A stretch of 52,178 nucleotides of DNA from a virus: positions 1 through 52,178 of the IMG/VR virus record IMGVR_UViG_3300031688_000025, one strand, 5' to 3'. This document shows, piece after piece, positions 21,374 through 43,579 of this stretch. The translations under genes and the position numbers were made by a program. The stretch's first letter is position 1. Every line of letters begins with the position of its first letter. The notes beneath the pieces were generated by a model, which worked only from the letters and a program-made list of their open reading frames with translations, ran no database searches and had not been told where the DNA came from.

Positions 21374-21383
21374 TTTTTCGGCA

Positions 21384-21404: not shown

Positions 21405-21437
21405 TTTTTAGACAAACCTTTGTGAGGACACAAACGT

Positions 21438-21656: not shown

Positions 21657-21832
21657 TGGCTAACTATATTATAAGGTTAAATGATTCAGAAGATAAAGAG
21701 TCAGTCTCTGTTAGTATAGAGTCTGATGGTCTTCATCTTGCAGAGGAGGATAGTAAAGCGTTTCAACTATCTGCTTATGCGTTAGATTGTATCCAATCAT
21801 TAGAGGAGAAGGCTAAGAATGCAACCCACTGA
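21656..21832 (+). CDS. Small hypothetical protein
   Basis: 58 residues, MANYIIRLNDSEDKESVSVS at the start and a helical end with LDCIQSLEEKAKNATH. Start and stop overlap both neighbours (one base upstream, 14 bases downstream), which supports a real coupled gene. Acidic; no family recognised. Confidence 0.55.
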   Translation: MANYIIRLNDSEDKESVSVSIESDGLHLAEEDSKAFQLSAYALDCIQSLEEKAKNATH

Positions 21833-22091: not shown

Positions 22092-22093
22092 CC

Positions 22094-22255: not shown

Positions 22256-22772
22256 ATGTAATGATGGTCACAAGTGGTACAGTTCTCTTGTTGGACAGAC
22301 AGTACCCTTAGTATCTGTAGAGTCTAATGAATATATGTCTAAGGAACCTGCAGGCTACATAAACTTTGTAGCTAAGGATGATGCTGTTCTAGTAGACGTA
22401 GAATATAAGACATGTACTAAGTGCAGAGTTAAGAAAGATGAGACTGAGTTCTCTATGGAAAGCGGTAGAGGATATCGTAAGACATCTTGTAGGCTGTGCG
22501 TAAGGTCTGTGTCTAAGGTAAGAGATGCACTTCATAAAGAAATGGGTACGCCTCCTGATGACTACGAGTGTCCTATCTGTTTAAGAAACGAAGAGGAAGC
22601 TGCAGGTTGTGGTGGTGTAAACAAATCCCCTTGGGCTTTGGATCATGATCACTTGACCAGTAAGTTTAGAGGGTGGCTATGCCACTCATGCAATAGAACA
22701 TTAGGTGGACTGAAGGATGACTTCGGTGCTCTTAATCGTATAAGAACATATCTAAAGAAGGGAAGAGAATGA
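22233..22772 (+). CDS. Recombination endonuclease VII-like (Holliday junction resolvase)
   Basis: 179 residues from the ATG at 22233 (AGGTGAGG upstream); a GTG at 22221 is the alternative. Two Cys pairs come first (CTKCRVKKD and SCRLCV), then YECPICLRNEE, the catalytic LDHDHLTSKFRGWLCHSCNR and LGGLKDD. This is the endonuclease VII pattern (T4 gp49): zinc-binding cysteines around an HxH metal site. It resolves branched DNA before packaging. T7-like phages often use a different resolvase (gp3); this one may replace it. Confidence 0.85.
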   Translation: MQKIKIIKCNDGHKWYSSLVGQTVPLVSVESNEYMSKEPAGYINFVAKDDAVLVDVEYKTCTKCRVKKDETEFSMESGRGYRKTSCRLCVRSVSKVRDALHKEMGTPPDDYECPICLRNEEEAAGCGGVNKSPWALDHDHLTSKFRGWLCHSCNRTLGGLKDDFGALNRIRTYLKKGRE

Positions 22773-24622
22773 ACACATCTAACAAAATCCTATCAGACAT
22801 AACTGTCTTCAGCAAGTATGCAAAGTACGTACCTGAGTTGGAGCGTAGGGAAACTTGGGATGAGCTAGTAACACGTAACAAAGAAATGCATATGCGTAAG
22901 TACCCTACTATGGTAGACGAAATTGAGTCTGCATATAAGTTTGTCTATGATAAGAAAGTACTACCTTCTATGAGAGCCTTGCAATTTGGTGGCGCACCTA
23001 TCGAGCTGGCACCTAACCGAATCTATAACTGTGCCTACCTACCAGTAGAAAGTACAGAAGCTTTCGCAGAGACTATGTTCCTACTACTTGGTGGTACTGG
23101 TGTGGGTTACTCAGTGCAACGTCATCACACCCGTAAACTACCTGAAGTATCAGGGCCTAAGGTACGCAAGCGTAGGTTCCTTGTGTCAGATAACATTGAA
23201 GGGTGGGCTGATGCAGTCAAGGTTCTATGTGAGTCTTACTTCAACGGCACTATGGATGTAGAGTTTGACTACCGTGACATCCGACCTAAGGGTGCTATGC
23301 TTATCACTACTGGTGGTAAAGCACCGGGGCCTCAGCCTCTTAAGGATTGCATACACAAGCTAAGGTCTACACTTGATGAGGCTATTGGTCGTAATCTTAC
23401 TACACTAGAAGTCCATGACATGATGTGCTTCATCGCTGATGCTGTGCTTACAGGTGGTATACGTAGGGCAGCTATGATCTCCTTGTTCTCTATGGATGAC
23501 GCAGACATGCTTGCTTGTAAAGCTGGTAACTGGTGGGAAGAGAACCCTCAACGTGCTAGGTCTAACAACTCAGCAGTAATGCTTAGACATAAGATTACTA
23601 AGGAAGCTTTCGAGAAGCTATGGAAACGTGTAGAGCTATCAGGTTCAGGTGAGCCAGGGATTTACTTTACTAATGATAAAGACTGGGGCACTAACCCTTG
23701 CTGTGAGATTGGCTTACGTCCATACCAAATGTGTAACCTCACTGAACTCAATGCTTCTAATGTTACATCACAAGAAGACTTGAACAGTAGAGCACGAGCA
23801 GCTTCTCTAATTGGTACGTTGCAAGCAGGGTACACAGACTTCCATTACCTACGACCTGAATGGCAAGAGACTTGTCAACGAGATGCACTCATTGGTGTAG
23901 GCCAAACAGGCATTGGGTCTGGTGCTGTACTTAAGTTTAACTTAGAGGAAGCGGCACTTGAAGTTGTTAACGAAAACAAAAGAGTGGCTAAGCTGTTGGG
24001 AATTAATTCAGCTGCGAGATGTACCACGGTTAAGCCTAGTGGCACTAGTTCTTGTGTGCTCGGTAGCAGTAGTGGTATTCATGCTTGGCATAACGATTAC
24101 TATATCCGTAGGCAACGGGTTGGTAAGAACGAAGCACTCTATCAGTACTTTGCTGAGAACCACCCTGCGTTGGTGGAAGACGAATACTTTAATCCACAAG
24201 AACAAGCAGTGATTGAGATACCACAGGCAGCACCCCCTAACTCTATCCTAAGGACAGAGAGTCCAGTTGAATTGCTTGACAGAGTACGTAAGTACAATGT
24301 AGAATGGGTAGCTCCGGGTCACATCGAAGGTCAGAACTCTCACAATGTATCATGTACTATCTCTGTTAAGGATGATGAGTGGGAGCTGGCTGGTGAGTGG
24401 ATGTGGAAGAACCGATACACCTTTAATGGTATCGCAGTACTACCATACAACGGTGGCACCTATGTGCAAGCACCCTTCGAAGACATCTCCGAAGAGCGTT
24501 ACCGTATCATGGAGTCTGCACTTACAGGTATCGATCTAACTCAAGTGAAAGAAGTAGAAGACAAGACAGACCTCAGTGGTGAAGCTGCTTGTGCAGGTGG
24601 AGCTTGTGAAGTAACTTTCTAA
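22769..24622 (+). CDS. Adenosylcobalamin-dependent ribonucleoside-triphosphate reductase (class II)
   Basis: 617 residues. Cys88 (YNCAYLP), the radical-site motif NPCCE (309-313) and Cys322 (YQMCNL) fit the active-site pair and thiyl cysteine of monomeric class II reductases; the C-terminal CAGGAC (608-613) is the reductant-shuttling pair. It makes dNTPs for phage replication and needs B12 from the host. It is shorter than the Lactobacillus enzyme (739). No separate small subunit is present, as expected. The start overlaps the endonuclease stop by four bases. Confidence 0.92.
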   Translation: MNTSNKILSDITVFSKYAKYVPELERRETWDELVTRNKEMHMRKYPTMVDEIESAYKFVYDKKVLPSMRALQFGGAPIELAPNRIYNCAYLPVESTEAFAETMFLLLGGTGVGYSVQRHHTRKLPEVSGPKVRKRRFLVSDNIEGWADAVKVLCESYFNGTMDVEFDYRDIRPKGAMLITTGGKAPGPQPLKDCIHKLRSTLDEAIGRNLTTLEVHDMMCFIADAVLTGGIRRAAMISLFSMDDADMLACKAGNWWEENPQRARSNNSAVMLRHKITKEAFEKLWKRVELSGSGEPGIYFTNDKDWGTNPCCEIGLRPYQMCNLTELNASNVTSQEDLNSRARAASLIGTLQAGYTDFHYLRPEWQETCQRDALIGVGQTGIGSGAVLKFNLEEAALEVVNENKRVAKLLGINSAARCTTVKPSGTSSCVLGSSSGIHAWHNDYYIRRQRVGKNEALYQYFAENHPALVEDEYFNPQEQAVIEIPQAAPPNSILRTESPVELLDRVRKYNVEWVAPGHIEGQNSHNVSCTISVKDDEWELAGEWMWKNRYTFNGIAVLPYNGGTYVQAPFEDISEERYRIMESALTGIDLTQVKEVEDKTDLSGEAACAGGACEVTF

Positions 24623-24674
24623 TCTAACATAACGACCTGAGTATAGTCATTAAACTTCTCGCAGAGGATACAAG

Positions 24675-26507
24675 ATGAGTAAGTATATATTTGACATAGA
24701 AACCAATGGCCTATTCCCTGATAAGATCTGGATGCTAGTCATGCAAGACATAACAACAGAGGAAGTCTACTCCTACTCTGACTACAATGATAAGCTACCC
24801 TCGCTAACTGAAGGTCTTGATAGGCTTAGTAATGCTAAGATCATATCAGGTCACAACGTTATTGGGTTTGACTTACCTGTAATGAAGAGACTACTAGGGT
24901 GGGTACCCTCTGATAGCACTAAGATCTGGGATACATTCCTTATGTCTCAACTATGCAAGTACCAACGTGGTCACCTGCATGGTCTTAAGGGATGGGGTGG
25001 TTTCTTTGAGTACCCTAAGGGTGATCATGAGGACTGGTCTTGTTACAGTGATGAGATGCTAACGTACTGCATACGGGATGTTGAGCTTAACCTTAAGGTA
25101 TACCAACGTGTATCTAAGGAAGCTTCTATCTTAATGAAGCAGAACCCTATGTTCCTACAGGCTCTTGAACTAGAGCATGATTTTGCATTAGTGAATGCAG
25201 AGATCACTGAGAACGGATGGAAGTTTAACATGCGTAAGGCTGAGAGTTTATACGAAGAGATACTAGATCGTATGGAACACATTGAAGATGTGCTCAACCC
25301 TCAGCTTGGTACTGTAGCTGTCATGCGTGGTAACCGTGAGGTCGATCAGATAATTAAGAAGGATGGGTCTTACTACAAACGTGTAGTTGATTGGTTCGAA
25401 TTAGCTGAGGACATCAAGGCATCTGATGGTAACATTGCAGGCCCCTATACTCGTGTAGAGTTTAAGGAAGTTAAGCTTGGTCAGATGGATGAGGTTAAGA
25501 AGTTCTTACTAGATAAAGGATGGAAGCCTGATGACTGGACTGTTAAGAAGATCAACGGTACATGGATAAAGCAAAGCCCTAAGCTTACTGATAGTTCCTT
25601 GAAACCCTTGGGTGAGATAGGTACACACATCAGTGACTACTACATGCTACGCAATAGGTTAGCTACTGTTGAAGGGTGGATAGCTTCAGTCAATGACGAA
25701 GAGAAGTTCAATGATGGTAGGTTGCATGGCAGTATGTTTACCATTGGCACTCCCTCTTTCAGATGTAGACATAGGACTATCGTAAACATACCGGGGGTCT
25801 ATGCACCCTATGGTAAAGAGATGCGTAGCCTACTGACATGTGAGAAAGGAAGTAAGGTTGTTGGTGCTGACTCTGCAGGTAATCAGTTCAGAGGTCTATG
25901 TCACTACATCGGTGACGATAAGTTTACCAATGAAGTTATTAACGGTGATGTTCATCAGCGCAATGCTGACATCTTAGGTATCAGCAGACCACAGGCTAAG
26001 ACATTCATCTATGCCTACCTATTCGGGGCTGGCCCTGCTAAGCTAGGGGAAGCTATCTCTGGGAAGAAGTCTGCTAAGATTGGTAAAGAAGCTGATGCTA
26101 CCTTTAAGGCTACCTTGCCGGGGCTTAAGGTTCTTAAGGATACTTTGGAAGATGAGTTCAGAATGTCTATGATGAAGACAGGTCAGGGCTTTATCATGGG
26201 GGCTGATGGTCGTAGGGTTATGGTAGCTTCCGAGCACCAGACACTTAACTACTTACTGCAAACTCTAGAAGGTATTACTTGTAAGGCTGCACTTGTGTAT
26301 GCGTACAAGAAGATTAAAGAACTTAACCTCGATGCTTACCCAGTCTTGTTCTATCATGACGAGGTTGCATTCGTAGCTAAAGAGAGCGATGCAGAAGCAG
26401 TTAAAGAAATCTGTGTTGAAGCTTTCAGAGAAGCACCTAAGAGTGTAGGTGTTATGTGTATGGATGGTGATGGGCAAATAGGAGACAGCTATGCTGACGT
26501 TCACTGA
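24675..26507 (+). CDS. Family A DNA polymerase with 3'-5' exonuclease
   Basis: 610 residues. Exonuclease residues D7/E9 (FDIETNG), D66 (GHNVIGFD) and Y131..D135 are intact. Polymerase motif A has D399 (ADSAGNQFR), motif B R438-K442-Y446 (RPQAKTFIYAYLFGAG), motif C HDE at 561-563. Y446 matches T7 Tyr526 (Pol I position 762); Tyr or Phe there goes with virulent phages. Position 404 is Gln where T7 has Glu480. It is shorter than T7 polymerase (704), and an obvious thioredoxin-binding insertion was not found. Confidence 0.93.
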   Translation: MSKYIFDIETNGLFPDKIWMLVMQDITTEEVYSYSDYNDKLPSLTEGLDRLSNAKIISGHNVIGFDLPVMKRLLGWVPSDSTKIWDTFLMSQLCKYQRGHLHGLKGWGGFFEYPKGDHEDWSCYSDEMLTYCIRDVELNLKVYQRVSKEASILMKQNPMFLQALELEHDFALVNAEITENGWKFNMRKAESLYEEILDRMEHIEDVLNPQLGTVAVMRGNREVDQIIKKDGSYYKRVVDWFELAEDIKASDGNIAGPYTRVEFKEVKLGQMDEVKKFLLDKGWKPDDWTVKKINGTWIKQSPKLTDSSLKPLGEIGTHISDYYMLRNRLATVEGWIASVNDEEKFNDGRLHGSMFTIGTPSFRCRHRTIVNIPGVYAPYGKEMRSLLTCEKGSKVVGADSAGNQFRGLCHYIGDDKFTNEVINGDVHQRNADILGISRPQAKTFIYAYLFGAGPAKLGEAISGKKSAKIGKEADATFKATLPGLKVLKDTLEDEFRMSMMKTGQGFIMGADGRRVMVASEHQTLNYLLQTLEGITCKAALVYAYKKIKELNLDAYPVLFYHDEVAFVAKESDAEAVKEICVEAFREAPKSVGVMCMDGDGQIGDSYADVH

Positions 26508-27255
26508 TGATCACGAAGAGAAGTTTGAGTTTGACAAGTGTTTTATAGACGGGGACTCGATGCTGTACAGAATAGCGTACACCACCGACTCAGATGCTCA
26601 AGCACAAAGCACCTTAGACCTAGCACTACTAGCTGTAATGAGAGATACTAACTCAGCTAAGGGTTATGTAGCTGTGAAAGGTAAGGGTAACTTCCGTCAT
26701 GACATGGCTGATGATTACAAAGCTAACCGTAGTAAAACTGAAATGGATCCTCGGATTAAACAAAACCTTAATAGCTTGTATCAATACTGCTGGGATACTG
26801 GATGTGTCCAAGCGCATGGGTGTGAGGCAGATGACTTGGTTTCTATCTGGGCTACTGAAGCAGAAGAAGCAGGCGACTCCTTTGTCATAGCCCATGTTGA
26901 TAAAGATATTGATATGGTTCCGGGTTGGCACTACAACTTCAACAAGAAAAGTATGTATCATGTTGACGAAGAAAAAGGCCACTACCTACTTTGTAAGCAG
27001 TTGCTAACTGGTGATTCTTCTGATAACATACAGGGTCTTAGAGGTGTAGGCCCTAAGACTGCAGAGAAACTGTTAGCTAACGTAAGCAAGGGTGATATGC
27101 TGGATGTAGTTAGGAAGTCTTGGAGGGAGAAACACCCAAGAGACTGGAAGGAGAAGCTTCAACTCTGCTTCAACCTAATCTATATGCGTAGATCCTTTGA
27201 CGGTTTCGAGGCACTAACTATTGAAGAAGTGTATGGAGAGGGTAGACTTAGATGA
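26491..27255 (+). CDS. 5'-3' exonuclease (FEN/T7 gp6-type)
   Basis: 254 residues from an ATG inside the end of the polymerase gene, with AGGAG upstream. The acidic metal-site motifs are visible: CFIDGDSMLYR, HGCEADDLVSIW, AHVDKDIDM, and LLTGDSSDNIQGLRGVGPKT with the helix-hairpin-helix. It removes RNA primers and resects DNA during replication and host DNA degradation. Gene order polymerase, exonuclease, then primase-helicase is a shuffled T7-type set. Confidence 0.9.
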   Translation: MLTFTDDHEEKFEFDKCFIDGDSMLYRIAYTTDSDAQAQSTLDLALLAVMRDTNSAKGYVAVKGKGNFRHDMADDYKANRSKTEMDPRIKQNLNSLYQYCWDTGCVQAHGCEADDLVSIWATEAEEAGDSFVIAHVDKDIDMVPGWHYNFNKKSMYHVDEEKGHYLLCKQLLTGDSSDNIQGLRGVGPKTAEKLLANVSKGDMLDVVRKSWREKHPRDWKEKLQLCFNLIYMRRSFDGFEALTIEEVYGEGRLR

Positions 27256-27791
27256 CTAAACAAAACTTAGGGCATTGGGAGTACGGAGGTTCTCCCTTTG
27301 ATCCTGATAGTTACTTCGGGTTTATATACCTGATTACATGCACACACCCTGAAGAACCTAAGAGGTACATAGGTCGTAAGCAATTCCATATGTACCGCAA
27401 GGGTAAAGACAGGGCTGTGTCTAACTGGAAAACTTATAGCAGTTCATCTAAACATATTAACAAGATGATACTAGACTACGGTAGCGATAACTTTAAGTTT
27501 GAGATACTACAATTGTTTGAAACTAAAGGTGGCTTGTCAGCAGGTGAAGTCAAGGTTCAATGGGAACTTGATGTGCTTACTCAGAAGTATACCGATGGTA
27601 CTCCTGTCTTTTTAAACAGACAGATAGGGGCAATTAAGTTTATTCCTAAGGAAGAAGTTAATGACAGAACAAGAGAGCGACTCCAAGGTATCGCCTTCGG
27701 AATCAGAGAAGAACGGGAAAGTCAAGAAAGCCTCAAGGATTCAGAGGAAGAAGCTATCACAAACAAAGAGAAGATTAATAAAGAACCTTAA
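27252..27791 (+). CDS. GIY-YIG endonuclease
   Basis: 179 residues. GFIYLITC, then KRYIGRKQF is the GIY-YIG motif (FIY...YIG with catalytic Arg), and AGEVKVQWELDVL supplies the downstream Glu. The C-terminus is a charged Glu/Lys tail. Such nucleases act in homing, host DNA breakdown or intron spread. The gene is joined by ATGA to the exonuclease, so it is a fixed part of the operon, not obviously a recent insertion. Its target is unknown. Confidence 0.75.
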   Translation: MTKQNLGHWEYGGSPFDPDSYFGFIYLITCTHPEEPKRYIGRKQFHMYRKGKDRAVSNWKTYSSSSKHINKMILDYGSDNFKFEILQLFETKGGLSAGEVKVQWELDVLTQKYTDGTPVFLNRQIGAIKFIPKEEVNDRTRERLQGIAFGIREERESQESLKDSEEEAITNKEKINKEP

Positions 27792-27809
27792 AGAAAAACG
27801 GTGGTCTTA

Positions 27810-29426
27810 ATGAAAACCAAAGATAGATTTGTAAAGCATATGCCATGCAAACACTGTGGTTCTTCTGATGCAGTAGGTATGTACTCCAATGGGATTGGTA
27901 CATGCTTCCACTGTAAGAAAACTACATTCGAAAATGAAAGAGAAGATACCATGCAAGAATCATATGCACCAAAACAAGTTGAAGACTTATCAACTATTAC
28001 TTCCTACGACACAAGAGGTGTACAGGAAAGAGGTATAACTAAGCAGGTTGCAGCCCACTTTGGTATGAGGGTTTCATATAATGCTGACGGGACTATCGAG
28101 TCCCACTACTACCCATACACTAAGAAGAATAAGATAGTTGCGTACAAGATTCGTAACTTACCTAAGGACTTCAGAGTTAAGGGAGACTTCTCTGACATTG
28201 ATCTGTTTGGTCAATCAACTTTCACCCAAGGTGGTAGATCACTGACTATTACAGAGGGTGAGCTAGATGCTATGGCAGTGGCTCAATCAAATCTATCAAA
28301 CGGGAGTACGATATATCCCGTAGTATCCCTACCTTCTTCAAGCAACCTCAATCCTCTTATAAAGAATCGTGAGTGGATAAGAACATTCGATACAGTTGTA
28401 TTGATGTTTGATCAAGATGATGCAGGGGAGAAGGCAGTAGAGAATGCAGCTAAGATCATTGGCTGGGATAAGGTAAAGGTAGCTAGTCTACCTGAAAATG
28501 ATCCATGCGAAACTTTAATTAAACATGGGCCTAAGGCATTAGTAAGTGCGTTCTGGTCTGCTCAGCCATACACACCGGCTGCAGTAGTACGAGGCGAAGC
28601 CATATGGGAAGAGTATGTTAAGCGCAAGACAGTTGAATCAGTACCATACCCTAGTTGTCTTAGTGGTTTGAATGACAAGCTAGGTGGTATGAGACATGGT
28701 GAGATAACATTGTTCACCTCAGGTACTGGGTCAGGCAAGTCCACTATGATTAAAGAAATTATTTTACAACTGAAGGAAGAGACAGAAGATAACATAGGGG
28801 TTATATCACTAGAAGAATCTATTGGTGACTCAGCCCAGAAGTTTATTCAAATGTTTGTACCGGAAGAACCAACCGAAGAGCAGGAGCGAAAAGCATTTGA
28901 TGATGTATTTGGAGATAACCGTATCATTCTCCTTGATCATAACGGCGCTGTATCTGATTCTTCTCTTATAGATCAAATAGAGAACTTGTGTCTGTTAGGG
29001 TGTAAGCACTTGGTGCTTGATCACATTACTATTGCAGTGTCAGAAGGCACTAACGGTAAGACAGGTAACGAAGCTATCGATACTATCATGTCTGACTTGT
29101 TAAAGATTGTTAAGAAACATAATGTCTGGTTGGGTATCATCTCCCACCTACGTAAGTCTCAAGGTAAGTCCTTTGAAGAGGGACACCTTGCTTCTATCGA
29201 TGACATCAAAGGTTCAGGTTCAATCAAACAAATCAGCTTTGATATTGTAACGTTTGCTCGCAACCTAATAGCAGAGAACGAAGATGAAAGAAATACCATA
29301 CACCTTAGAGTACTGAAGTCTAGATTCACAGGGCTTACAGGTGATTGTGGTTCAGCATACTACGACCAGAAGACTAAACGTCTGAAGGGTCAGATGGATT
29401 TCTTAGACTACAAAGCAGGAGTGTAA
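27810..29426 (+). CDS. T7 gp4-like primase-helicase
   Basis: 538 residues from the ATG at 27810 (the GTG nine bases earlier is possible). The N-terminal zinc ribbon CKHC...CFHC aligns with the T7 gp4 zinc domain. TOPRIM motifs follow (TITEGELDAMAVA; VVLMFDQDDAGEKA), then a RecA-like helicase domain with Walker A SGTGSGKSTM and a KHLVLDHITIAV Walker B region. It unwinds the fork and primes the lagging strand. The end (MDFLDYKAGV) lacks the long acidic tail of T7 gp4. Confidence 0.92.
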   Translation: MKTKDRFVKHMPCKHCGSSDAVGMYSNGIGTCFHCKKTTFENEREDTMQESYAPKQVEDLSTITSYDTRGVQERGITKQVAAHFGMRVSYNADGTIESHYYPYTKKNKIVAYKIRNLPKDFRVKGDFSDIDLFGQSTFTQGGRSLTITEGELDAMAVAQSNLSNGSTIYPVVSLPSSSNLNPLIKNREWIRTFDTVVLMFDQDDAGEKAVENAAKIIGWDKVKVASLPENDPCETLIKHGPKALVSAFWSAQPYTPAAVVRGEAIWEEYVKRKTVESVPYPSCLSGLNDKLGGMRHGEITLFTSGTGSGKSTMIKEIILQLKEETEDNIGVISLEESIGDSAQKFIQMFVPEEPTEEQERKAFDDVFGDNRIILLDHNGAVSDSSLIDQIENLCLLGCKHLVLDHITIAVSEGTNGKTGNEAIDTIMSDLLKIVKKHNVWLGIISHLRKSQGKSFEEGHLASIDDIKGSGSIKQISFDIVTFARNLIAENEDERNTIHLRVLKSRFTGLTGDCGSAYYDQKTKRLKGQMDFLDYKAGV

Positions 29427-31523
29427 ATGGCTAACGCTATACATGCTGTAGCTCAGTACATAAGGAGCAATAGAGAAGGTGCCCGAGGTAGGAATCACTC
29501 GGGTATCGAACTCTTAAACAGGCATATGGATTACGGTATAGAATACGAAGAGCTTGTTATATGTGCAGTACAGGCAGCTCAAAGCTTATTCCTTAGATCC
29601 CGTAACGCTAGTAGTAGAAGCTTCAAGTTAACAGCAACATCAACATCAATAGGTTTATCTGTGGTCTCTAGGATAGGGATCAGGAACAGTACCTATACAG
29701 AGTTATTCTCAGTTGGTGATCTGTTTGTCGAAGCCTTACTACAACTTAAGTACCTTGAGATAGAAAGAGAGTACGAAGGTTACCGAGCACCGTATGTAAT
29801 ATTCTTAACAGAAAAGTGGGAAGACTTAGGTGAGATACCTCCAGAGTTTGATAAGGCTACACTGAGTGGTACTAGCTTTAAGAAATTCCCTAAGATAATT
29901 GGGTTAAGAAACCCGATAACCAAGAGGCCGTATATCAAACGTATGACCTCGGAGAGGGACTTTAACCAGTGCCTTGACCAACCCTTTGTGAAAGCTCTAG
30001 ACAAGCTGCAATCGTCTGCTTGGCACCTTAACGTAGACCTTGTTAAAGCTCTCAGAGATAACGTCACTAAGTTCTTAGATATGAAAGATAAGACAGACAA
30101 AGGTAGGTCTAAAAGAATAGAGATGAAGTTTATCTTAAACAAAGCAAGGGCTATAGGAGACGAAACTTTCTACCAAGCGGTAGAGTGTGACTACAGGGGG
30201 CGAGTGTACTACACTGAACCGTTCTTAAACTACCAAGGTTCTGACTTAGCCAAAGGTCTCTTTCAGTTTGGCGTAAGTAAACCTATGGATGACAAAGGAT
30301 TCTTTTGGTTATGTGTACACACTGCATGTTCTTACAACCAGTCGTATACGATAGAGGACTTAGATAAACAATCATGGTTAACAGAAGACTACAGGCATCA
30401 CTTAGCAGAAGAAGGGTTGGATACTATTTCAGTAGACAAAATGACGTTAAGGGACAGAGCACATTGGACAGTACACCACCAGAAGGAACTGATAAACGAT
30501 GCAACCTTGATGAACTTCAGGATGGAAGCGGAGAAACCAGTATCACTCCTAGCTTGCTGTCTTGATCTTAAAGGTTATGTAGAATCTGAAGGGGTATACG
30601 AGTCTTGTCTGCCTATACCTGTAGACGGAAGTAACAATGGATGGCAACACCTAGCTGCTATGTCTAAAGACAGTCAAGCAGGGGCGTTAGTCTCCATAGT
30701 ACCTCAGCTAATACAAAAAGATTTCTATGTAGAAGTAGCTAAGCGATTGATAGTTAGAATGCCTGAGTGGTTTGAGGGTAGGTCTATGCCAATGAAAGCA
30801 ATACGTAAAGGGATAGCCAAGCGTGGGTCTATGACTAGAGCTTACTCTGCAGGTCAACGTAAGATAGCAGAGAATATGTTCTATGATTGTAAGACTGAGG
30901 GATACAATAAGAAGTACAAGATAAGCAAAGATGACTGCGACAAGCTGTCTAAGAATCTAATTCTTGCTATCAATGATACTTGTGTTGGGCCCTTAAAGAC
31001 CATGAAGTTCTTACAAAAGATAACTGACTACTCACTAGAGAGTGGACAGACTTGTCTATCGTGGACTACACCATCAGGATTCCCTGTGTTGTATGAAGTA
31101 TGGAAGCAAAAGAACCTGACACTAAGGGGTACTATCAGGGGCTTAGGGCAGATAGGTCATAGCATCAAGGTGCCTGTGCTTACCAGAGAAAGTAAGCCTA
31201 TACCATGCCGTAGGTCTTTTGCATCTGGATGTTCACCTAACTTTGTACACTCAATGGATGCAGCACACATGGCTAAGGTAATCGAGTCATTCCCCGGAAG
31301 CTTTGGGGCAGTACATGATTCCTTCTCTACCCATGCGTGTGACGTTGAGAGGTTACTTGAGCATACTAAGTGGCAGTTTGCTATGATGTATAATGTAAGT
31401 AACTTCTTTAATCGCATAGAGTCTATGATCCTTGAGGATCGTACAGGTTACTGTGTTAAACAACCAGATATAGGTGATCTAAAAATAGAAGAAGTCATAA
31501 GCTCTGACTATTTCTTTTCTTAA
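29427..31523 (+). CDS. Single-subunit T7-like RNA polymerase
   Basis: 698 residues. CDYRGRVYYTEP (254-265), motif A VDGSNNGWQHLAAM with D400, motif B AKRGSMTRAYS (K465, Y473), motif C FVHSMDAAHM and VHDSFST with D631, and a C-terminus SDYFFS like the T7 FAFA foot. It transcribes phage genes from its own promoters. It is about 185 residues shorter than T7 RNA polymerase (883); the loss is mainly N-terminal, the promoter-contact and initiation region, so its promoter may differ in form. T7 Arg627 is Lys461 here. Confidence 0.93.
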   Translation: MANAIHAVAQYIRSNREGARGRNHSGIELLNRHMDYGIEYEELVICAVQAAQSLFLRSRNASSRSFKLTATSTSIGLSVVSRIGIRNSTYTELFSVGDLFVEALLQLKYLEIEREYEGYRAPYVIFLTEKWEDLGEIPPEFDKATLSGTSFKKFPKIIGLRNPITKRPYIKRMTSERDFNQCLDQPFVKALDKLQSSAWHLNVDLVKALRDNVTKFLDMKDKTDKGRSKRIEMKFILNKARAIGDETFYQAVECDYRGRVYYTEPFLNYQGSDLAKGLFQFGVSKPMDDKGFFWLCVHTACSYNQSYTIEDLDKQSWLTEDYRHHLAEEGLDTISVDKMTLRDRAHWTVHHQKELINDATLMNFRMEAEKPVSLLACCLDLKGYVESEGVYESCLPIPVDGSNNGWQHLAAMSKDSQAGALVSIVPQLIQKDFYVEVAKRLIVRMPEWFEGRSMPMKAIRKGIAKRGSMTRAYSAGQRKIAENMFYDCKTEGYNKKYKISKDDCDKLSKNLILAINDTCVGPLKTMKFLQKITDYSLESGQTCLSWTTPSGFPVLYEVWKQKNLTLRGTIRGLGQIGHSIKVPVLTRESKPIPCRRSFASGCSPNFVHSMDAAHMAKVIESFPGSFGAVHDSFSTHACDVERLLEHTKWQFAMMYNVSNFFNRIESMILEDRTGYCVKQPDIGDLKIEEVISSDYFFS

Positions 31524-31540
31524 TTAAATAAGGATTAATA

Positions 31541-31744
31541 ATGATAATTAAAATGCCCGGTGTCACGGACACTAGTACGCCCTTACTAACAGAAGCTCAC
31601 TTCGAAACAGAAGAGAAACTTATAGAAGACCTAGGTGAGTTGTTAGAAAGTTACAACGGTAAGGTATCTAACCTAGCTATGGTTGGTGCCTTGACACTGT
31701 ATGCAAATATGGTATCATTAGGTTCTTTAGAGGCAAATGATTAA
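31541..31744 (+). CDS. Small acidic hypothetical protein
   Basis: 67 residues: a short beta start, then two helices (EEKLIEDLGELLESYNGK and NLAMVGALTLYANMVSLG). AAGG precedes it and its stop overlaps the next ATG. No family recognised. It follows the RNA polymerase gene; a polymerase modulator would fit that position, but the sequence does not show it. Confidence 0.55.
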   Translation: MIIKMPGVTDTSTPLLTEAHFETEEKLIEDLGELLESYNGKVSNLAMVGALTLYANMVSLGSLEAND

Positions 31745-32082
31745 TGGATAAAGTAAATGAGTTTCAAATTGTAGAAGACTTGGAGAACAAGGTAGTGGAC
31801 TGGGGTTACAGCAAAGGTATACTTACCAGTGCAGCACCAGATACTTTCCGTAGGATTAAACAACTTATTAAAACGGAAGAAGAGGTCATCGAGTTAGCTG
31901 ATGCTATACATGGTGACGATAGAACGGAGGCAATAGATGCCATTGGTGACATACTTGTTACTCTTATCATGCAGACACGTCTGTGGAATACTAATTTATA
32001 CGAGTGCCTCGATGAAGCTTTCGAGGTTATCAGTAAACGAACTGGACGAATGGTTGACGGCATATTCGTTAAGGATGAATAA
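31744..32082 (+). CDS. MazG-like nucleotide pyrophosphohydrolase
   Basis: 112 residues. The MazG metal motif EExxE...ExxD is visible as E46-E47-V-I-E50 and E62-A-I-D65 with D69, on helices as expected for the all-alpha NTP pyrophosphatase superfamily. The single-domain length fits phage MazG-like proteins, which hydrolyse (d)NTPs or alarmones and are common in marine phages. Confidence 0.75.
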   Translation: MDKVNEFQIVEDLENKVVDWGYSKGILTSAAPDTFRRIKQLIKTEEEVIELADAIHGDDRTEAIDAIGDILVTLIMQTRLWNTNLYECLDEAFEVISKRTGRMVDGIFVKDE

Positions 32083-32360: not shown

Positions 32361-32364
32361 AAAA

Positions 32365-32384
32365 GGGCCCCAATTAAGGGGCCC
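32365..32384 (-). terminator. Terminator for the leftward late operon
   Basis: A perfect 7-bp stem (GGGCCCC and GGGGCCC) with loop; on the minus strand it is followed by TTTTTTAAT. It ends transcripts from the virion RNA polymerase gene. Confidence 0.85.
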
Positions 32385-32399
32385 AAAGTACTACTATAT

Positions 32400-32425
32400 G
32401 GGGGCCCTAACGGGCTCCCTTTTTT
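32400..32425 (+). terminator. Terminator for the rightward operon
   Basis: An 8-bp stem with one wobble pair (GGGGGCCC and GGGCTCCC), 4-base loop, then TTTTTT. It overlaps the stop codon of the converging late gene. Confidence 0.85.
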
Positions 32426-35400
32426 ATTGTAATGTTGTTTTAAACTTAGGATCATCCATAGCAAACTGATAGATACCTCTTGCCTTACCTTCTCCGCTAG
32501 CTGCGGAAACGTACTGGTAGTGTGCATCTTTCATATGCTTAGCTACTCCTCTTCTCCTTTCAGCAGAATCTCTATCAAGCCTTGCAAGATCCTTTACAAC
32601 TGAACCAAACTTCCACTTCATTAAGAAAGACATAGACTCTGATAAGGTAGCATAGTTTCTGTAAGGGTTAGGTGTCTCTATCTCAAGACCTTTGTACTGA
32701 TGTGGCTTTAACCTAGCAGCTAAACGTTCAGCTTCTTCCTTAAGTGGCCCGTCAACATCTAAGTAATTAAGTTGATTCCTAACAAACTCAACAGTATTGT
32801 TGTGTTCATCTTCCATTATCAACTCTTTACCTGCCTGTTCCCCTCGTCTTTTAAACTCCTTAAAGCCATGGTGGATGTTACCTGTAACTACATCCTTGAT
32901 ATCCTTAAGAACAGCAGAGTTATTAGTTTGATCAAACCAATCATCATTTAACATCTGTTCTACAATATCACCTTGACTTAAGTCTGTAACAACAGCGTCA
33001 TAAATAGGAGATAGCCAAGGCATATTATCACCTTGCGTAAGCTTAGTCCAGTTCTTACCAGATGCCAACATAATCATGTTCATTGCATCAAAAGACTGAG
33101 CAAGTGTAGCTAAGGAAGATCCCCTTGCTTTACCGCCTAAGATACCACCCTGTGCAGCATAAGGGGTTAGCTGTGGGTTAGCAGAAGTAGTTTGAATCCT
33201 TTGATCAACTGACTTAAGCTGTTTCCTTAGTGCATCAGCTCTGACTAAGTTACCTTCAGCTTCAGCTCTTGAAATACTATCTTGTATTCCTTTGTTTACC
33301 TTACGGTTACCTGCTATAGTTTTACTGTCAAGCCTCTTACCATTTTCAAATGGAGTTATCATACCCCTCTTGAAACTCTCAGTGTCGTATACTTTCTCCA
33401 TACCACCTAACGTAGTCTTACCGCCACTTGGGCTTGGGAAAGTAACCATTCTGTTAAACATAGTAGACGCATCAACAGAATCCTTAAGCAAAGCAGCAAA
33501 CTCTACAAGCTCAGGCCCTAAGGTAGCTTCAACTGCAACACCTCTTATATCGTTTAGTAACATAGCAGCGTTGTTAAGTCCACCGGGGAATGACTCAGCC
33601 GCTTGCTTAAGAGTAGGATCACTAAGTAAAGTATCCCAGACAGAACCTATTAAGTTATCCATCTCTTGACCATAAGCAAAGGTCATTAAAGGTTTCTTAA
33701 GGAAGTCTGCCTTGTTCTTTAAAGACAACTGAAAGAGTTCTCTTACATTATCTAACATAGTTTCGTCATAGCTGTACTTATCCATGAACGCTTTGTCAGT
33801 AAGCATGTAACCGCTGAACTCACTGTCAAGTAAAGTCTCTAAGTTATTACTGAGGGTCTTTCTTATATCACCTTCGTAAGCTTCAAAGCCTTCTATGTCA
33901 GAATAAGCTCCAAGTATCTTACTAGCATTCTCAGCACGGAACAAACCAACCCGATACAACTTCTCTTTAAGACCTAGTATGCTGAACATAGTAGCTAATC
34001 CATTAGAGATGCCATCGATTTCCATATAGTTAACAGCAGATCTAAAAGACTTACCTGCTTTCATAGCTGCATCATAGTTAGCTATATCAATAACAGCATC
34101 TATCATTTGTATAGCATGCTTGTGTGCTTTCTTGTTATTAGCCAAACCTTGTATGAAGTCTGCAACCTCAGGGTCAGAAGATAAAGCTGCTGGTACTCTA
34201 GTAGGTAGCTTGTCTACACCTGAAACACCATTACTGTTTACCATAATCTGAGACAAAGCTAATCGTGCTGGCTTGTCATCGTAAGCCTGAAGGGCCTCGT
34301 TGATCTTTTTGCCAATCCTAACTAGTCTCTTATGGGCCTCAGATTGTGTACGTATGTTACCCGCAGCTTGCTCTATAGCATCAGCCCTTACAAGACCACC
34401 TCCGTCATAGAACAAAGCAGACATAGTAGCCAACCAGTTACTCTCTTCTCTGCTACGGCTGTTAGGAATGACCTCGATCATCTTACCACTGCCAATAATA
34501 TTACGAACAAGATGGTTGTTAACTGGTGATAGCGAAGAGTGTGGTGTTAACCTTTGAGTAACTCTTTGTTTAAAGTATGTAAAGTAAAAAGGTTTATTGT
34601 CATACACAGATAAGCTCGTAAGAACCTCAAGGGCTTTGTTAGCATGCATGTAATACTGTTGCTGTTGGAACTCTGGAGTTCTAAACTTAGCTTCTTGCAA
34701 CTTAGATATCTCTATATCTTGCTGTAGTTTCTCTATTAAAAACACAGTACGATAATAAGCAGGACTAGAAGGTTCAACAAGCAGAGCTTTATCTAGCTTA
34801 GCCTGAAGTACAAGACCCCTAGCATTTTCATTTTCTGCTATCTTTGCAATAGAAGCTTTCCTTTCATCACCTATGTCAAACATATCAAGCAAAGGGTTAC
34901 CATTAGCACCCATAGCAGCCTGACCCATAGCAGCAGAGCCTAACAAGATTGCAATCTTAGATCGTCTAGGTTCAAAGTAATTAGGCACTTGACTGTAACT
35001 AAACATAGCATCATCGGCGCTAATAGACTTAGGGTTAGGTACAGATCCTGTGCTAGACTTAGTATAAGCAGATCCCTCATACATAGGTTGACCTGTAGCA
35101 GGGGGAGATAGAAGTGGCTTCATCCTTGGATTAAAAGGTTTATACTTCCTAACATCTCTTGAGAGTACCTGAAATCCTAGCTTAGTCAAAGACAAAGTAG
35201 GTGGTAAAATATTACCAGCTTCATCAATACCGCCCGGAGAATGAGTAACTATATCCGGGAAACTCATTTGATAATCAGCAAGAAAAATCTTACCAATCAT
35301 TTCAAAAGCCTCAGGTGTTAAGTTCTGGTAATCAGCTACGTAAGAATCTGTTTCCAAACCTTCCATCTCAGACTTAGCTCTACGAAAATCCTTAAAGATA

Positions 35401-36410
35401 GCCTCACCCACACCTCTAACCGATGTGTCAAACTTAGAGTCTCCGGCTTGATAACCTTGCAACTCATCTATGTCTGCTTGAGCAGCAGAACTTAGAGGTG
35501 AACCATCGTCATTGTTAGCTTGAGACATGCTTAGAAGCCAAGGCTCTATCACTGCCATTTGTATTAGGTCAAACCGTGGGTCTACTTTAGCTGTCCTTGC
35601 GTAAGATATTTCCTCAAAGTCTGCCTCTCCGTCTGCATAAGCCTGAGCTGTGTCACGTTCGAACTTAGCATCTAGCTTACCAACCCCAAGGATCTTAGGG
35701 TGCATCACTAAGTTAGACATGCTTAACTTTAAATCAGGATTGTCCTTGAAAACATTAGGGGCTACATCATCCTGAGTCTGCATCTGTTCGATAGCCTCAG
35801 CAGTAACTTCCTCATCAGGGTTAAGCTTAAGGGTATCCTTAATGCTTAGACCAATAACATCCCTGTCCTGAGAGTCCCTTGTTTTAAACCTAACTCTTTC
35901 TGTAAGCTCATGCCCTAAGACATTTGCTGCATTAGAGAAGCTAGTGGCGATACCCATTCTTTCTAATGGGCCGGGGACTCTTTCCTGTTCCCGTTGTTGA
36001 ACCTCAAGGGGTGTCTCAGCTTGATCAACAAAGACATTGCTGCCTTCCTCAACCACAGAGCCAACACCCTGAGAGCCTACGTCAGCTTGCGCAGGTAGTA
36101 CAGTGGCTTCTGCCAGACCTAAGTCTGAAACAGGAGTCTCTAGTTGAGACCCCTCAGCAACCATATCAGTTTCATCTATGATACCAAGTTGTATCAAGTC
36201 TTCTCGGGTATACTCACCTTCGCCTTGTACTCCTTGAGGCCCTTCCAATGGGCCGAACTGTTCCTCTATTCCTTGAAGAGCCTCGTTACCACCTTGAGCT
36301 TGTTGAGAAAGCTCTTCCTGTAACCTGAGAAGCGACTCTTGTTTACTTGCTTCTGTTTCAGCAGCCGTAGGTTGAGCACCTATCACTGCGTTAGCTGACG
36401 TAATCGCCAT
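32424..36410 (-). CDS. Candidate virion single-subunit RNA polymerase (T7/N4 superfamily)
   Basis: 1328 residues, AGGAG site before the ATG. The first about 550 residues are Glu/Gln-rich with no match. The rest shows polymerase motifs in order: R620 in YFKQRVTQRL, with P629 aligning without gaps to T7 R425 to P434; motif A EIDGISNG (D799); motif B KKPLMTFAYG (K905, Y913); then AQSFDAMNM (D1108) and PIYDAVV (D1138). Spacings (R-A 179, A-B 114, B-C 225) are close to the T7 and N4 values as I recall them. Being last in the late operon beside ejection proteins suggests packaging in the virion, as for N4 gp50. Weak points: no Arg at the T7 R627 place, Tyr for His before D1138. Confidence 0.75.
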   Translation of the reverse strand: MAITSANAVIGAQPTAAETEASKQESLLRLQEELSQQAQGGNEALQGIEEQFGPLEGPQGVQGEGEYTREDLIQLGIIDETDMVAEGSQLETPVSDLGLAEATVLPAQADVGSQGVGSVVEEGSNVFVDQAETPLEVQQREQERVPGPLERMGIATSFSNAANVLGHELTERVRFKTRDSQDRDVIGLSIKDTLKLNPDEEVTAEAIEQMQTQDDVAPNVFKDNPDLKLSMSNLVMHPKILGVGKLDAKFERDTAQAYADGEADFEEISYARTAKVDPRFDLIQMAVIEPWLLSMSQANNDDGSPLSSAAQADIDELQGYQAGDSKFDTSVRGVGEAIFKDFRRAKSEMEGLETDSYVADYQNLTPEAFEMIGKIFLADYQMSFPDIVTHSPGGIDEAGNILPPTLSLTKLGFQVLSRDVRKYKPFNPRMKPLLSPPATGQPMYEGSAYTKSSTGSVPNPKSISADDAMFSYSQVPNYFEPRRSKIAILLGSAAMGQAAMGANGNPLLDMFDIGDERKASIAKIAENENARGLVLQAKLDKALLVEPSSPAYYRTVFLIEKLQQDIEISKLQEAKFRTPEFQQQQYYMHANKALEVLTSLSVYDNKPFYFTYFKQRVTQRLTPHSSLSPVNNHLVRNIIGSGKMIEVIPNSRSREESNWLATMSALFYDGGGLVRADAIEQAAGNIRTQSEAHKRLVRIGKKINEALQAYDDKPARLALSQIMVNSNGVSGVDKLPTRVPAALSSDPEVADFIQGLANNKKAHKHAIQMIDAVIDIANYDAAMKAGKSFRSAVNYMEIDGISNGLATMFSILGLKEKLYRVGLFRAENASKILGAYSDIEGFEAYEGDIRKTLSNNLETLLDSEFSGYMLTDKAFMDKYSYDETMLDNVRELFQLSLKNKADFLKKPLMTFAYGQEMDNLIGSVWDTLLSDPTLKQAAESFPGGLNNAAMLLNDIRGVAVEATLGPELVEFAALLKDSVDASTMFNRMVTFPSPSGGKTTLGGMEKVYDTESFKRGMITPFENGKRLDSKTIAGNRKVNKGIQDSISRAEAEGNLVRADALRKQLKSVDQRIQTTSANPQLTPYAAQGGILGGKARGSSLATLAQSFDAMNMIMLASGKNWTKLTQGDNMPWLSPIYDAVVTDLSQGDIVEQMLNDDWFDQTNNSAVLKDIKDVVTGNIHHGFKEFKRRGEQAGKELIMEDEHNNTVEFVRNQLNYLDVDGPLKEEAERLAARLKPHQYKGLEIETPNPYRNYATLSESMSFLMKWKFGSVVKDLARLDRDSAERRRGVAKHMKDAHYQYVSAASGEGKARGIYQFAMDDPKFKTTLQ

Positions 36411-41242: not shown

Positions 41243-43579
41243 CTATTTTTTAGTAAGTAGTGCCTTTGCATTTTGTATGCTTTGGACTACACTATTAGCT
41301 ACGTCTGAAGGGGAACCAGCTAAGTATTGTGGTTCAGATTTACTCTTAGTAAACATACTGTTTACCCAAAGAAGAGCAGGTGATAATTGCTCTGCTTTGT
41401 TATCTGATGAAGCCTCAGATCTAGATTCCCAATGCTCCTTAATACCCTTAGGCCCTGTTAACATTGCGTTACTATAAGCCCTATGTAAATGTTTGTATAC
41501 ATTACCATTGGTAAAATCAGACTGAGGTAATTTACTATCTTTTAGTTTAGAGTTAAGTACAGAGTTAAAAGTCTTAGCATTAGTCCTAACCTTAGCCCAA
41601 GCGTTCTGACCAATCTCACCTTTAGGTTTACCTATGACTTCAAAGAACGAAGAAGGTATACCCTTATCAGTGATATCATACTTAAGCTTTTGGAAGTCAA
41701 AGAAAGATGCAATATCTTTATTGTTCTTAGCTCCACCTCTAGCTACAGTATCAATCCAATCTTCCATACCCTTAGTAATCATAGACTGAACAACTGATTC
41801 ATCTGTTGCGAAGTCAGTGTTAGCTGGAAAACCGTTTACAAAAGAAGAAACAGCTTGAACAAGACTACTACGTGCAGTGGAGCTATTTAACTGCTCTATT
41901 AAGAATCTTCTTTTCTCTACTTTCATATCAGGGTCAGCTTCCAAGACACCTGTTATCCTTTTAACAGCATTCTCAGAAGTTGTTTGAGCTTCTTTAACTA
42001 GTCTTTGGATAGCACCATCTTGAGTCTCACCATTAAAAGAAAAAGCATTACTGCCAATAAGAGCAGACATTGGAACACTGCCGCCAGCTTTAAGATCAGG
42101 AAATGAGCTTAGAAACGGCTTAATATTTGAAGGGAAGAAACGACTATTATCTTGAGACTTAACACCATCCACTTCTTGCCTTGTACTGTTGTCAAACAGG
42201 GTAACGCCATTATCAAAATTTGGAGAGAGATCAGCAGCTTGCTTAGCAGAAGCTGTAGCTTTTACTTTACCTGAAGCAATTGCTTGATCAGAGTCAGCTT
42301 TAGCTTTAGCAGCTTGTACTTTCCACTCGTTCTCAAGGACTGCAGCACCAAAGGATACACCGTCCCCACCTAGTACCTTAGAGGCTGTGTAAGCAAACAA
42401 AGCTTTACGCAAAGCAGGATCTTCAAAACCTTGCTTAGCAATATCCTTAACGCTGTCCCAAAGTTTACCAAAGAAAGTTGGATCTTCCTTTGCTTCATCT
42501 AATGAAGCCTTAGGTGTTTCGTTACCTGCACCACCTATATCAGAATCTTTAAGGTTTTTATCTACTTTGGTAGCTACAGCAGTTGGCACTGTAGGATCAG
42601 CTTTAGTAGGATCAGCTAAATTAGGATCAGCTAAATTAGGATCAGCTTTAGTAGGATCAGCTTTAGTAGGATCAGCTTCAGTAGGATCAACCGGTACTTC
42701 AAGTACTAGCCCTGCTGCAGTTGGATCAGCCGGTACTTCAGGGGTTTCTTTAATCCCCAGTTTTATCTCTAAAGCATCAGCTTGATCGTCTAAACCAGAA
42801 GCTCGTAAACGTGCTACCTTATCTTTTTTCTCTGCTTCTTTATCTAATTTGAGTTTAAGAACGCTTTGTTTTATACCCGCTATCTTCATGGTCTCTATTC
42901 TTATAAGAGACTCTGCTCTCTCTGGAGTGATATCTCCGTTATCTCTCAGAGCTGTTATGTTTACAATCTCCTGTTCAGCTACAGGTATTTTACTTTCGTC
43001 TGCAACAAAGCCTTCATAAACATTAGAAACAGGATCAATTATATTATCCCTAATAAAAGGAATCTCAGGTATGTTCTTAATAAACTGAGGGATAAGATCG
43101 CCAGCTACCCCTGAAACAGGAGAATTCATTAGTGGCTGATATAGCTCAGGCACAAAGTTTTCAGACTTAGGTACGGGTACATTAGAAAATTCAGTAGGAA
43201 CACCTGATGAGTTACCTTCTCCGCTAAGATCCCCAGAAACAGGGGGTATTGTATAAAGTGCGGGTAGCTCTTTAAGATCACCATAGCTGTTAAATGCTTT
43301 CGGAGCAACCCCTCCGCTAACAGGGGTTGCCTTAGTAGGATCAAAGTTCTCTTCAAAAACCTCTTGAGCCTTAGGTATTAAATTACCATCTGACCCGTAT
43401 TCCATGGGAGGTGGAGTTGGGCCTGTAAAGGTAACCTTTGGGCCAGTAAGCTCCTCAAGTGGGGCACTTGGTACAGCTATTTGTCTGTTGCTATAAATAG
43501 CTTTATCTTTATCCTCTTGATCCATGTCTTTCATCAAGGTCATTATAGCCCCAAACGCATTATTAAAATCATTAGCCAT
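41243..43579 (-). CDS. Internal virion protein-like, 778 residues
   Basis: The N-terminal half is Pro- and acid-rich and probably unfolded; it contains tandem ADPTK/ADPNL pentapeptides encoded by the 15-base repeats at 42594-42683. The C-terminal half is helical (for example ALRKALFAYTASKVLGGDGV). Size and position, between a small Gly/Ala-rich protein and the lysozyme protein, match T7 gp15-type ejection proteins. No direct similarity was recognised. AAGGATAAG precedes the ATG. Confidence 0.6.
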   Translation of the reverse strand: MANDFNNAFGAIMTLMKDMDQEDKDKAIYSNRQIAVPSAPLEELTGPKVTFTGPTPPPMEYGSDGNLIPKAQEVFEENFDPTKATPVSGGVAPKAFNSYGDLKELPALYTIPPVSGDLSGEGNSSGVPTEFSNVPVPKSENFVPELYQPLMNSPVSGVAGDLIPQFIKNIPEIPFIRDNIIDPVSNVYEGFVADESKIPVAEQEIVNITALRDNGDITPERAESLIRIETMKIAGIKQSVLKLKLDKEAEKKDKVARLRASGLDDQADALEIKLGIKETPEVPADPTAAGLVLEVPVDPTEADPTKADPTKADPNLADPNLADPTKADPTVPTAVATKVDKNLKDSDIGGAGNETPKASLDEAKEDPTFFGKLWDSVKDIAKQGFEDPALRKALFAYTASKVLGGDGVSFGAAVLENEWKVQAAKAKADSDQAIASGKVKATASAKQAADLSPNFDNGVTLFDNSTRQEVDGVKSQDNSRFFPSNIKPFLSSFPDLKAGGSVPMSALIGSNAFSFNGETQDGAIQRLVKEAQTTSENAVKRITGVLEADPDMKVEKRRFLIEQLNSSTARSSLVQAVSSFVNGFPANTDFATDESVVQSMITKGMEDWIDTVARGGAKNNKDIASFFDFQKLKYDITDKGIPSSFFEVIGKPKGEIGQNAWAKVRTNAKTFNSVLNSKLKDSKLPQSDFTNGNVYKHLHRAYSNAMLTGPKGIKEHWESRSEASSDNKAEQLSPALLWVNSMFTKSKSEPQYLAGSPSDVANSVVQSIQNAKALLTKK
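42594..42683 (+). repeat. Six tandem 15-base repeats in the 778-residue virion gene
   Basis: Six units of GGATCAGCTTTAGTA with small changes (CTAAATTA in units 2 and 3; TTCAGTA in 6), then a diverged seventh. They keep the frame and encode ADPT(K/E) or ADPNL on the minus strand. In-frame repeats can change number by slippage and lengthen or shorten a linker. Confidence 0.9.

Follow-up and report, generated by a model that had tools for sequence, protein, structure and literature searches.

The window analysed here is a 52,178-nucleotide stretch of viral DNA, taken at its full length (IMG/VR virus record IMGVR_UViG_3300031688_000025, positions 1 to 52,178). The terminal gene of its late operon, at 32424-36410 on the minus strand, encodes a protein of 1328 amino acids (aa; P0001) that is probably a compact virion RNA polymerase (vRNAP) of the N4 kind; it would be made late, ejected with the DNA and transcribe the early genes. 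The identification as a single-subunit RNA polymerase (RNAP) is strongly supported by motifs, profiles and predicted fold, and catalytic activity would be expected from these. Packaging into the virion is supported by the late position of the gene, its neighbours and the lack of cysteine (Cys) in its product.

Virion single-subunit RNAPs have been reported from N4-like phages or prophages only, and nearly always as fusions to a metallopeptidase (PMC5512222). A survey of N4 vRNAP homologues removed those of less than 2500 aa (PMC10654107), a cut-off by which the compact polymerases considered here would have been excluded. Compact virion-type RNAPs form a real class that has apparently gone unannotated so far. 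A marine group with a version of about one-third the size would show which parts of a vRNAP may be dispensable, and the compact enzyme could serve as a tractable scaffold for studies of packaging, ejection and hairpin-promoter recognition.

Catalytic motifs, predicted fold and profile relationships

The first-pass annotation, made from the letters of the window, had read the gene as a single-subunit RNAP from residues R620, P629, I639, D799, K905, Y913, D1108 and D1138, and all of these are found at the positions given in the 1328-aa open reading frame (ORF). On the minus strand, profile alignment and conservation mark R620 (34551-34553) as the counterpart of R424 of the N4 mini-vRNAP. Alignment and conservation likewise identify the motif A catalytic D799 in EIDGISNG (ExDGxxxG; 34014-34016), motif B from K905 to Y913 (KKPLMTFAY, followed by G914; 33672-33698) and D1108 in AQSFDAMNM, the counterpart of the T7 HSQDGSH element (33087-33089). 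The motif C catalytic D1138 (IYDAV; 32997-32999) is assigned from the model and from conservation. The equivalents in an alignment of 11 Schitoviridae sequences are R424, EADGVTNG, KNPLTITIYG, the D of GTGDG, and IFDG, and ExDGxxxG is the motif that has been used to recognise N4 vRNAPs (PMC10654107).

D799, G800, K905, Y913, G914, D1108 and D1138 are invariant in all 24 distinct members of the sequence cluster to which the protein belongs (cluster 1), in an alignment with identities down to 21% and only 44 invariant columns out of 1328. R620 is kept in 20/20 members that cover its region, the other four being fragments that lack it, and E797 of motif A is a glutamate in 20 of the 24. P629 had been proposed as a further polymerase landmark; it is conserved in 9/20 members and hence is not a family residue. 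The ungapped match that had been reported between residues 620-639 and T7 425-444 does exist, but it comprises 4/20 identities and is the second-best 20-residue segment of the protein against that T7 segment. Profile alignment instead sets R620 and the following stretch opposite R424 of the N4 mini-vRNAP and its NPQ.

An AlphaFold model covering residues 150-1328 (mean predicted local distance difference test score, pLDDT, 73.4; predicted template modelling score 0.64; pLDDT of 69-90 at the motifs when averaged over 10-residue blocks) shows the palm and fingers fold for which the first-pass annotation had suggested a check. All 50 structures from the Protein Data Bank (PDB) listed by Foldseek (best E 2.6e-12) and all 50 listed by VIA-align (best Z 18.8) are single-subunit RNAPs. 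In VIA-align, where matches differing by no more than 1 in Z count as tied, yeast mitochondrial RNAP (Z 18.8, root-mean-square deviation (rmsd) 10.6), N4 mini-vRNAP 3c46 (Z 18.4, rmsd 4.8, 603 residues aligned) and T7 RNAP 1s76 (Z 18.4, rmsd 6.0, 546 residues aligned) stand level. Among the matches listed from a viral structure library most are RNAPs, including annotated vRNAPs, with two Vibrio-phage 'coil containing' proteins and some unnamed entries also among the top ones. In the model D799 is in a strand that is followed by a helix, and D1138 is flanked by two predicted strands.

The model also suggests the domain layout. The polymerase core spans approximately residues 421-1319 (32454-35150, minus strand), with model residues 272-1170 set against 289-1063 of N4 mini-vRNAP 3c46. 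It is preceded by an N-terminal part of residues 1-420 (35151-36410, minus strand) with an approximate boundary and a putative role, made up of residues 1-149 outside the model and then some 270 residues ahead of the core. This boundary is based on the N4 structures, most of whose matches begin at model residues 272-282, that is protein residues 421-431, and one at 195; several T7 and mitochondrial structures cover the N-terminal part too, at high rmsd. As the core stops at about residue 1319 of 1328, it is followed by no counterpart of the 1400-residue C-terminal region of the N4 enzyme.

At the level of sequence, the PHROG 2206 family ('virion RNA polymerase') matches residues 753-914 with an E-value of 8.7e-07. 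A profile of cluster 1 compared with 11 Schitoviridae vRNAPs gave 97.5% (E 5.6e-12), with 97.2% (E 3e-11) from a 20-row alignment and 97.7% (E 1.4e-12) in another run; the columns of the Arg, the NPQ and motifs A and B are in register, and the alignment ends before motif C. Against T7-like RNAPs the same profile gave 36.8% (E 3.6e-4) or 7.1%, depending on the direction of the comparison, and the N4 vRNAP profile matched the T7-like RNAP profile at 95%. Controls against the N4 vRNAPs reached at most 0.1% for 30 column-shuffled profiles and 0.2% for a reversed profile, and a profile of the neighbouring protein family stayed at or below 1.6% in each of six pairs. The profiles place the 1328-aa polymerase nearer to N4 virion polymerases than to T7-like enzymes.

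Several comparisons weigh against this placement. The cluster profile matched the N4 mini-vRNAP alone, taken without its relatives, at 3.8% and with nothing at the core. For the 1328-aa protein neither Pfam nor the PDB sequences gave a match, and the cluster profile found one irrelevant match among PDB sequences (E 2.3). When 20 members were scanned as single sequences, 5/20 matched the virion-RNAP PHROG at E 1 or better, and 8/20 matched the general phage-RNAP PHROG at that level (best E 6.3e-08). Direct searches gave no tblastn match for the 1328-aa protein in 50,697 phage records at 1e-5, and no relative in the genome contigs searched. The missing Pfam and PDB matches, together with the four identities to T7 in the segment discussed above, are what might be expected if the protein were not a polymerase and its motifs resembled those of polymerases by coincidence, but this is contradicted by the fold search, by the shuffled and reversed profile controls and by conservation throughout the family, and we regard it as hardly credible.

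Late position, cysteine content and the resident polymerase

The 1328-aa gene closes the late operon and converges on the early/middle operon, as in N4, and in a relative (G003) the late genes form an unbroken run from TerL through to the gene at the same terminal position, hereafter the slot. Beside it lie genes for two probable ejection proteins, of 1604 aa (P0003; 36414-41228, minus strand) and, third in the cassette, of 778 aa (P0004; 41243-43579, minus strand). The 1604-aa protein matches staphylococcal-nuclease-like (SNase) domains (E 4e-05) and, at a sub-threshold E of 0.012, lysozyme near its N-terminus, and in relatives with a swapped cassette its counterpart changes along with the polymerase gene.

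The 1328-, 1604- and 778-aa proteins contain no Cys in 3710 aa, where 17 would be expected at the rate of 30 Cys in 6437 aa that holds for the 22 other late ORFs counted. N4 gp50 (0 Cys in 3500 aa), gp51 and gp52 and T7 gp15 and gp16 are all Cys-free, as are gp33, gp34 and gp35 of the related Roseobacter phage CRP-7. Of the distinct full-length proteins found in the slot, 34/37 are Cys-free and the remaining three hold one Cys. The lack of Cys in vRNAPs has been linked to passage through the tail and the periplasm (PMC3715699).

Other counts and one published requirement speak against packaging. Cys is also absent from 8/22 of the other late ORFs, including a 923-aa fibre and a 367-aa scaffold, and from CRP-7 gp37, gp42 and gp51, and in T7 gp14 has one Cys and gp13 three. 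The lack of Cys in 8/22 other late ORFs means that this feature supports packaging and does not prove it. Moreover, the C-terminal region of the N4 vRNAP has been described as required for encapsidation (PMC5512222), a role cited as unpublished in PMC4496689. This region is absent from the 1328-aa protein, and packaging would thus need another signal. Its absence would fit a functional single-subunit RNAP that is made late and remains unpackaged, for instance a late-gene polymerase acting beside the resident enzyme. We consider this unlikely, given that the slot protein is Cys-free whereas these phages' intracellular T7-like RNAPs have 13-17 Cys each, that its gene is the terminal late gene beside two large Cys-free proteins and is replaced together with its neighbour, and that of the two kinds of RNAP compared it is the N4 virion enzyme that is nearer by profile. 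The proposal of the first-pass annotation, a virion polymerase much smaller than N4 gp50, thus has support, its packaging part from position, neighbours and Cys content.

The separate 698-residue polymerase that had also been noted is borne out. A gene at 29427-31523 on the plus strand, in the early/middle operon and convergent with the 1328-aa gene, encodes a single-chain T7-like RNAP with 16 Cys that matches PF00940 at E 8.6e-50. The convergent junction of 63 bp (32361-32423) carries a GC-rich inverted repeat (GGGCCCC...GGGGCCC) that is terminator-like by eye. An independent scan with the slot polymerase family as query gave 58 loci, and in 47/47 loci that extend 3 kb or more past the match a convergent T7-like RNAP lies beside the slot polymerase, at a spacing of 0.7-1.6 kb from match to match. 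The 11/58 loci with less than 3 kb of flank were left out of the 47, and five of these 11 still showed the RNAP.

The first-pass annotation knew of no such combination. N4-like phages pair a vRNAP with a heterodimeric T7-like RNAP (PMC4496689), and the principle of pairing is therefore already known. The combination of a compact vRNAP with a single-chain T7-like RNAP outside the Schitoviridae was not found described in the portions of the open-licence literature that were available.

In the transcription programme that we propose, the polymerase would be made late together with the ejection proteins and then packaged, and would be ejected with the DNA into the host. There it would use phage promoters, possibly short hairpins of the early region, to transcribe early genes. 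The resident T7-like RNAP would be among the early products and would take over middle and/or late transcription. Catalytic activity, packaging, ejection, the early-gene role and the type of promoter are the steps that we infer.

Relatives in the slot and apparent exchange of the ejection cassette

Judged by its resident RNAP and its portal, Roseobacter phage CRP-7 (MK613349) is the closest phage record, and it is a cultured relative in which early transcription can be studied. It is 51.3% identical to the window in the portal (over 89%), 53% in the capsid, 46% in the primase, 34% in the DNA polymerase and 32% in the RNAP. Gene order around the slot is the same, and the slot is occupied by the hypothetical protein gp33 (1235 aa). 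With portal, replication genes and gene order in common, the phage of the window belongs by sequence to a CRP-7-type group. The available part of the CRP-7 paper mentions one RNAP (ORF30) and no virion RNAP (PMC6918029).

Slot proteins were collected in several ways. Three near-identical contigs came from a direct IMG/VR scan, along with L004, which is at 42% and has the same convergent RNAP. A scan with the resident RNAP gave 42 loci; slot proteins of 500 aa or more came from 27 of these, loci that were too short being dropped. In a further set 22/41 loci yielded a slot protein of at least 290 aa, and nine of these 22 came from the same contigs as L008-L016. The resulting 61 slot proteins, duplicates included, reduce to 37 distinct full-length sequences of 1190-1328 aa; the fragments L081 (cluster 4) and L015 (cluster 2) were left out of the profiles.

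Around CRP-7-like resident RNAPs the slot proteins fall into three clusters beyond cluster 1. At E 1e-5, blastp gives none of them a 200-column match to cluster 1 or to another of the three, which rules out a single alignable family of slot proteins; clusters 3 and 4 show short blastp matches over 10-18% of their length. By eye, each further cluster shows the motifs D-xxx-G, K or R-x7-YG, and hydrophobic-(H/F/Y)D. Profile comparisons link clusters 1 and 4 (97.1%), 3 and 4 (96.3%) and 1 and 3 (84.9%). Direct comparison of clusters 3 and 4 gave no match to N4 vRNAPs (1.1% and 8.8%) or to T7-like RNAPs (0.2% and 1.2%), and they connect to N4-type polymerases through cluster 1.

The CRP-7 type (cluster 2) is weakly linked to cluster 4 (37.7%, E 3.4e-4; controls E 0.03 or more). 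It reaches at most 13.9% against the N4 vRNAP profile (E 0.002, over the motif-C stretch; 3.7% in another run) and 0.1-0.3% against the cluster 1 profile, and like clusters 3 and 4 it has no direct match to the N4 or the T7-like RNAP profile. No PHROG matches cluster 4 or the CRP-7 type significantly (best E-values 0.024 and 0.018, respectively), and an AlphaFold model of a CRP-7-type protein, built with seven sequences, is not confident (mean pLDDT 41.8). The CRP-7 branch is accordingly the weakest link among the putative slot polymerases, and is joined to them by the slot, the motifs and the weak match to cluster 4.

The slot gene diverges fast even where no swap has taken place. Between G003 and the window TerL is 86% identical, the resident RNAP 84-88%, the 1604-aa neighbour 55% and the slot protein 31%. 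Such divergence would suit an RNAP-derived ejection or scaffold protein that has kept its fold, used for DNA translocation or in an ejectosome, and has lost transcription, and the same may be said of the Arg that replaces the motif-B Lys in 10/10 members of the CRP-7 type. Against this, neither Asp varies in any of the 24 members of cluster 1, nor do the Lys and the Tyr; that catalytic residues are kept in all members while only 44/1328 columns are invariant argues for selection on catalysis. A protein without transcriptional activity is therefore improbable in our view, and an active virion polymerase is the reading that we prefer.

Several pairs of loci share a near-identical resident RNAP region, namely L073/L101 (99.9% over 4225 bp), L084/L086 (99.3% over 5602), L091/L092 (98.9% over 4239) and L101/L104 (98.0% over 3051). 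Within these four pairs the slot proteins have no blastp match and the neighbour proteins are 21-26% identical. Homology is lost abruptly just past the resident RNAP region in all four; it returns some 9.5 kb on in L091/L092 and some 8.8 kb on in L101/L104, near the locus ends, where the reading frame of the third protein runs off the end of the locus. Among 37 pairs with resident RNAPs at least 95% identical, which are not independent as several contigs are near-identical, 14 lack a slot alignment over 30% of the query and none lacks a neighbour alignment. The swapped loci are metagenome contigs in which single cases may be assembly errors; with several independent swapped pairs, assembly error is unlikely to account for all of them.

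With resident regions 98-100% identical, slot proteins that cannot be aligned and neighbours at 21-26%, the ejection cassette appears to be exchanged as a unit. The broader proposition, that phages of the CRP-7 group swap at least four compact vRNAP lineages, each with its partner ejection protein or proteins, into genomes whose resident region is 98-100% identical, we hold to be evenly balanced between true and false. If it is true, the virion polymerase would be an arms-race module selected at entry and not a conserved housekeeping enzyme. The exchange raises the question of what drives the replacement of the ejected polymerase while the resident enzyme stays constant.

Promoter candidates, other features and comparison with known systems

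Three short hairpins on the plus strand of the early region are candidate promoters of the N4 type. One, with a TTC loop of 3 nt and a single mismatch in its 6-bp stem, lies in the early leader (12500-12514). A perfect 6-bp hairpin with loop TTC (template strand C-GAA-G) lies at 12988-13002, some 60 bp ahead of the ORF at 13063, and an identical copy lies at 22199-22213, upstream of a block of endonuclease VII, ribonucleotide reductase (RNR) and DNA polymerase genes. All three face in the early direction, stand upstream of early genes and have a template loop 5'-GAA-3' closed by C:G, which fits the N4 hairpin promoter requirement of a 5' G and 3' A in the loop and a closing G:C (PMC4496689). 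The identical letters also give a C(UNCG)G RNA tetraloop; the promoter and RNA-hairpin readings are thus inseparable, and the hairpins serve as a lead only.

No such perfect hairpin occurs in the late direction of the window. Two or more hairpins arose in 2/200 random sequences for a 6-bp stem and in 14/200 for a 5-bp stem, and the one-mismatch search that adds the site at 12500 also adds 19156 and 42929. G003, the nearest relative, has two early-direction hairpins, one in the leader ahead of the same early gene as in the window (its orf161 homologue), with a different stem, and one upstream of RNR. In five more distant relatives, with the CRP-7 scan covering the first 50 of 58 kb, no hairpin occurs at equal stringency, which counts against the promoter reading. 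A terminator scan listed none of the three window sites, and a sigma-70 scan of 12000-31999 was uninformative (42 sites against 46 expected).

The leader also holds the motif TAAGGTACTATAATGG in tandem (12340-12355 and 12366-12381, plus strand), with no further copy in the window at three or fewer mismatches. It was considered as a promoter of either polymerase and assigned to neither, 15/100 shuffles having at least two matches. Copies of the similar CTATAAGGTACT, a possible promoter, are found in the leaders of G003 and G001.

Other features of the window were also recorded. Early-operon genes at 17313-19660 (plus strand) match the glutamine amidotransferase and 'ribosomal protein S6 glutaminyl transferase' PHROGs, have counterparts in G003 (56% and 46% identity) and may form a protein- or peptide-modification module. 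Near the left end (559-1058) there are four 113-nt copies at a spacing of 129 nt, the others being 63-73% identical to the reference copy. The 923-aa tail fibre gene has tandem coding repeats in a 21-bp register at 2941-3912, and the 778-aa ejection-type gene has a tandem coding repeat of 15 bp at 42577-42696. In the 1604-aa neighbour, the nuclease domain lies within a probable ejection protein.

Among known systems, a 2270-aa protein of Stenotrophomonas phage StenR_269 has likewise been proposed as a vRNAP, on the basis of its size, helix content and lack of Cys, without reliable evidence from sequence or fold (PMC10747016); it is larger than the 1328-aa protein. The T7 gene 1 RNAP shares superfamily, catalytic residues and predicted fold with the 1328-aa protein, which differs in its weak profile match to T7-like enzymes, its late-operon position and its lack of Cys, and the same phage already has an enzyme of the T7 kind in its early/middle operon. 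CRP-7 gp33 shares the slot, the convergence with a T7-like RNAP, the absence of Cys, motif C (IHDAL) and a preceding GGDST. It differs in having no blastp or profile similarity to cluster 1 and Arg for the motif-B Lys, and is annotated as hypothetical.

The phage of the window departs from the hallmarks of the Schitoviridae, with its best TerL match in phrog_2 (phrog_38 in N4), its capsid in phrog_1328 (phrog_1357 in N4) and a single-chain RNAP; its portal falls in phrog_1216, as does that of N4. The vRNAPs themselves differ in size, with 1328 aa (1190-1328 aa among slot proteins) against 3500 aa for N4 gp50, about one third, and 2842-3820 aa for N4-type vRNAPs in reference genomes (PMC10654107). 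The gp50 type carries a fused zincin-like metallopeptidase (HEXXH) and a C-terminal encapsidation region (PMC5512222); the motif H[EQ]xxH is absent from P0001, P0005 and P0007. The 1328-aa protein has its polymerase core at the C-terminus, and its partner RNAP is one chain and not a heterodimer. What it has in common with N4 gp50 and the Schitoviridae vRNAPs is the catalytic core, the predicted fold, the ExDGxxxG motif A and the lack of Cys and, with gp50, a convergent terminal late gene that adjoins those of ejection proteins, in a phage that also has a T7-like RNAP.

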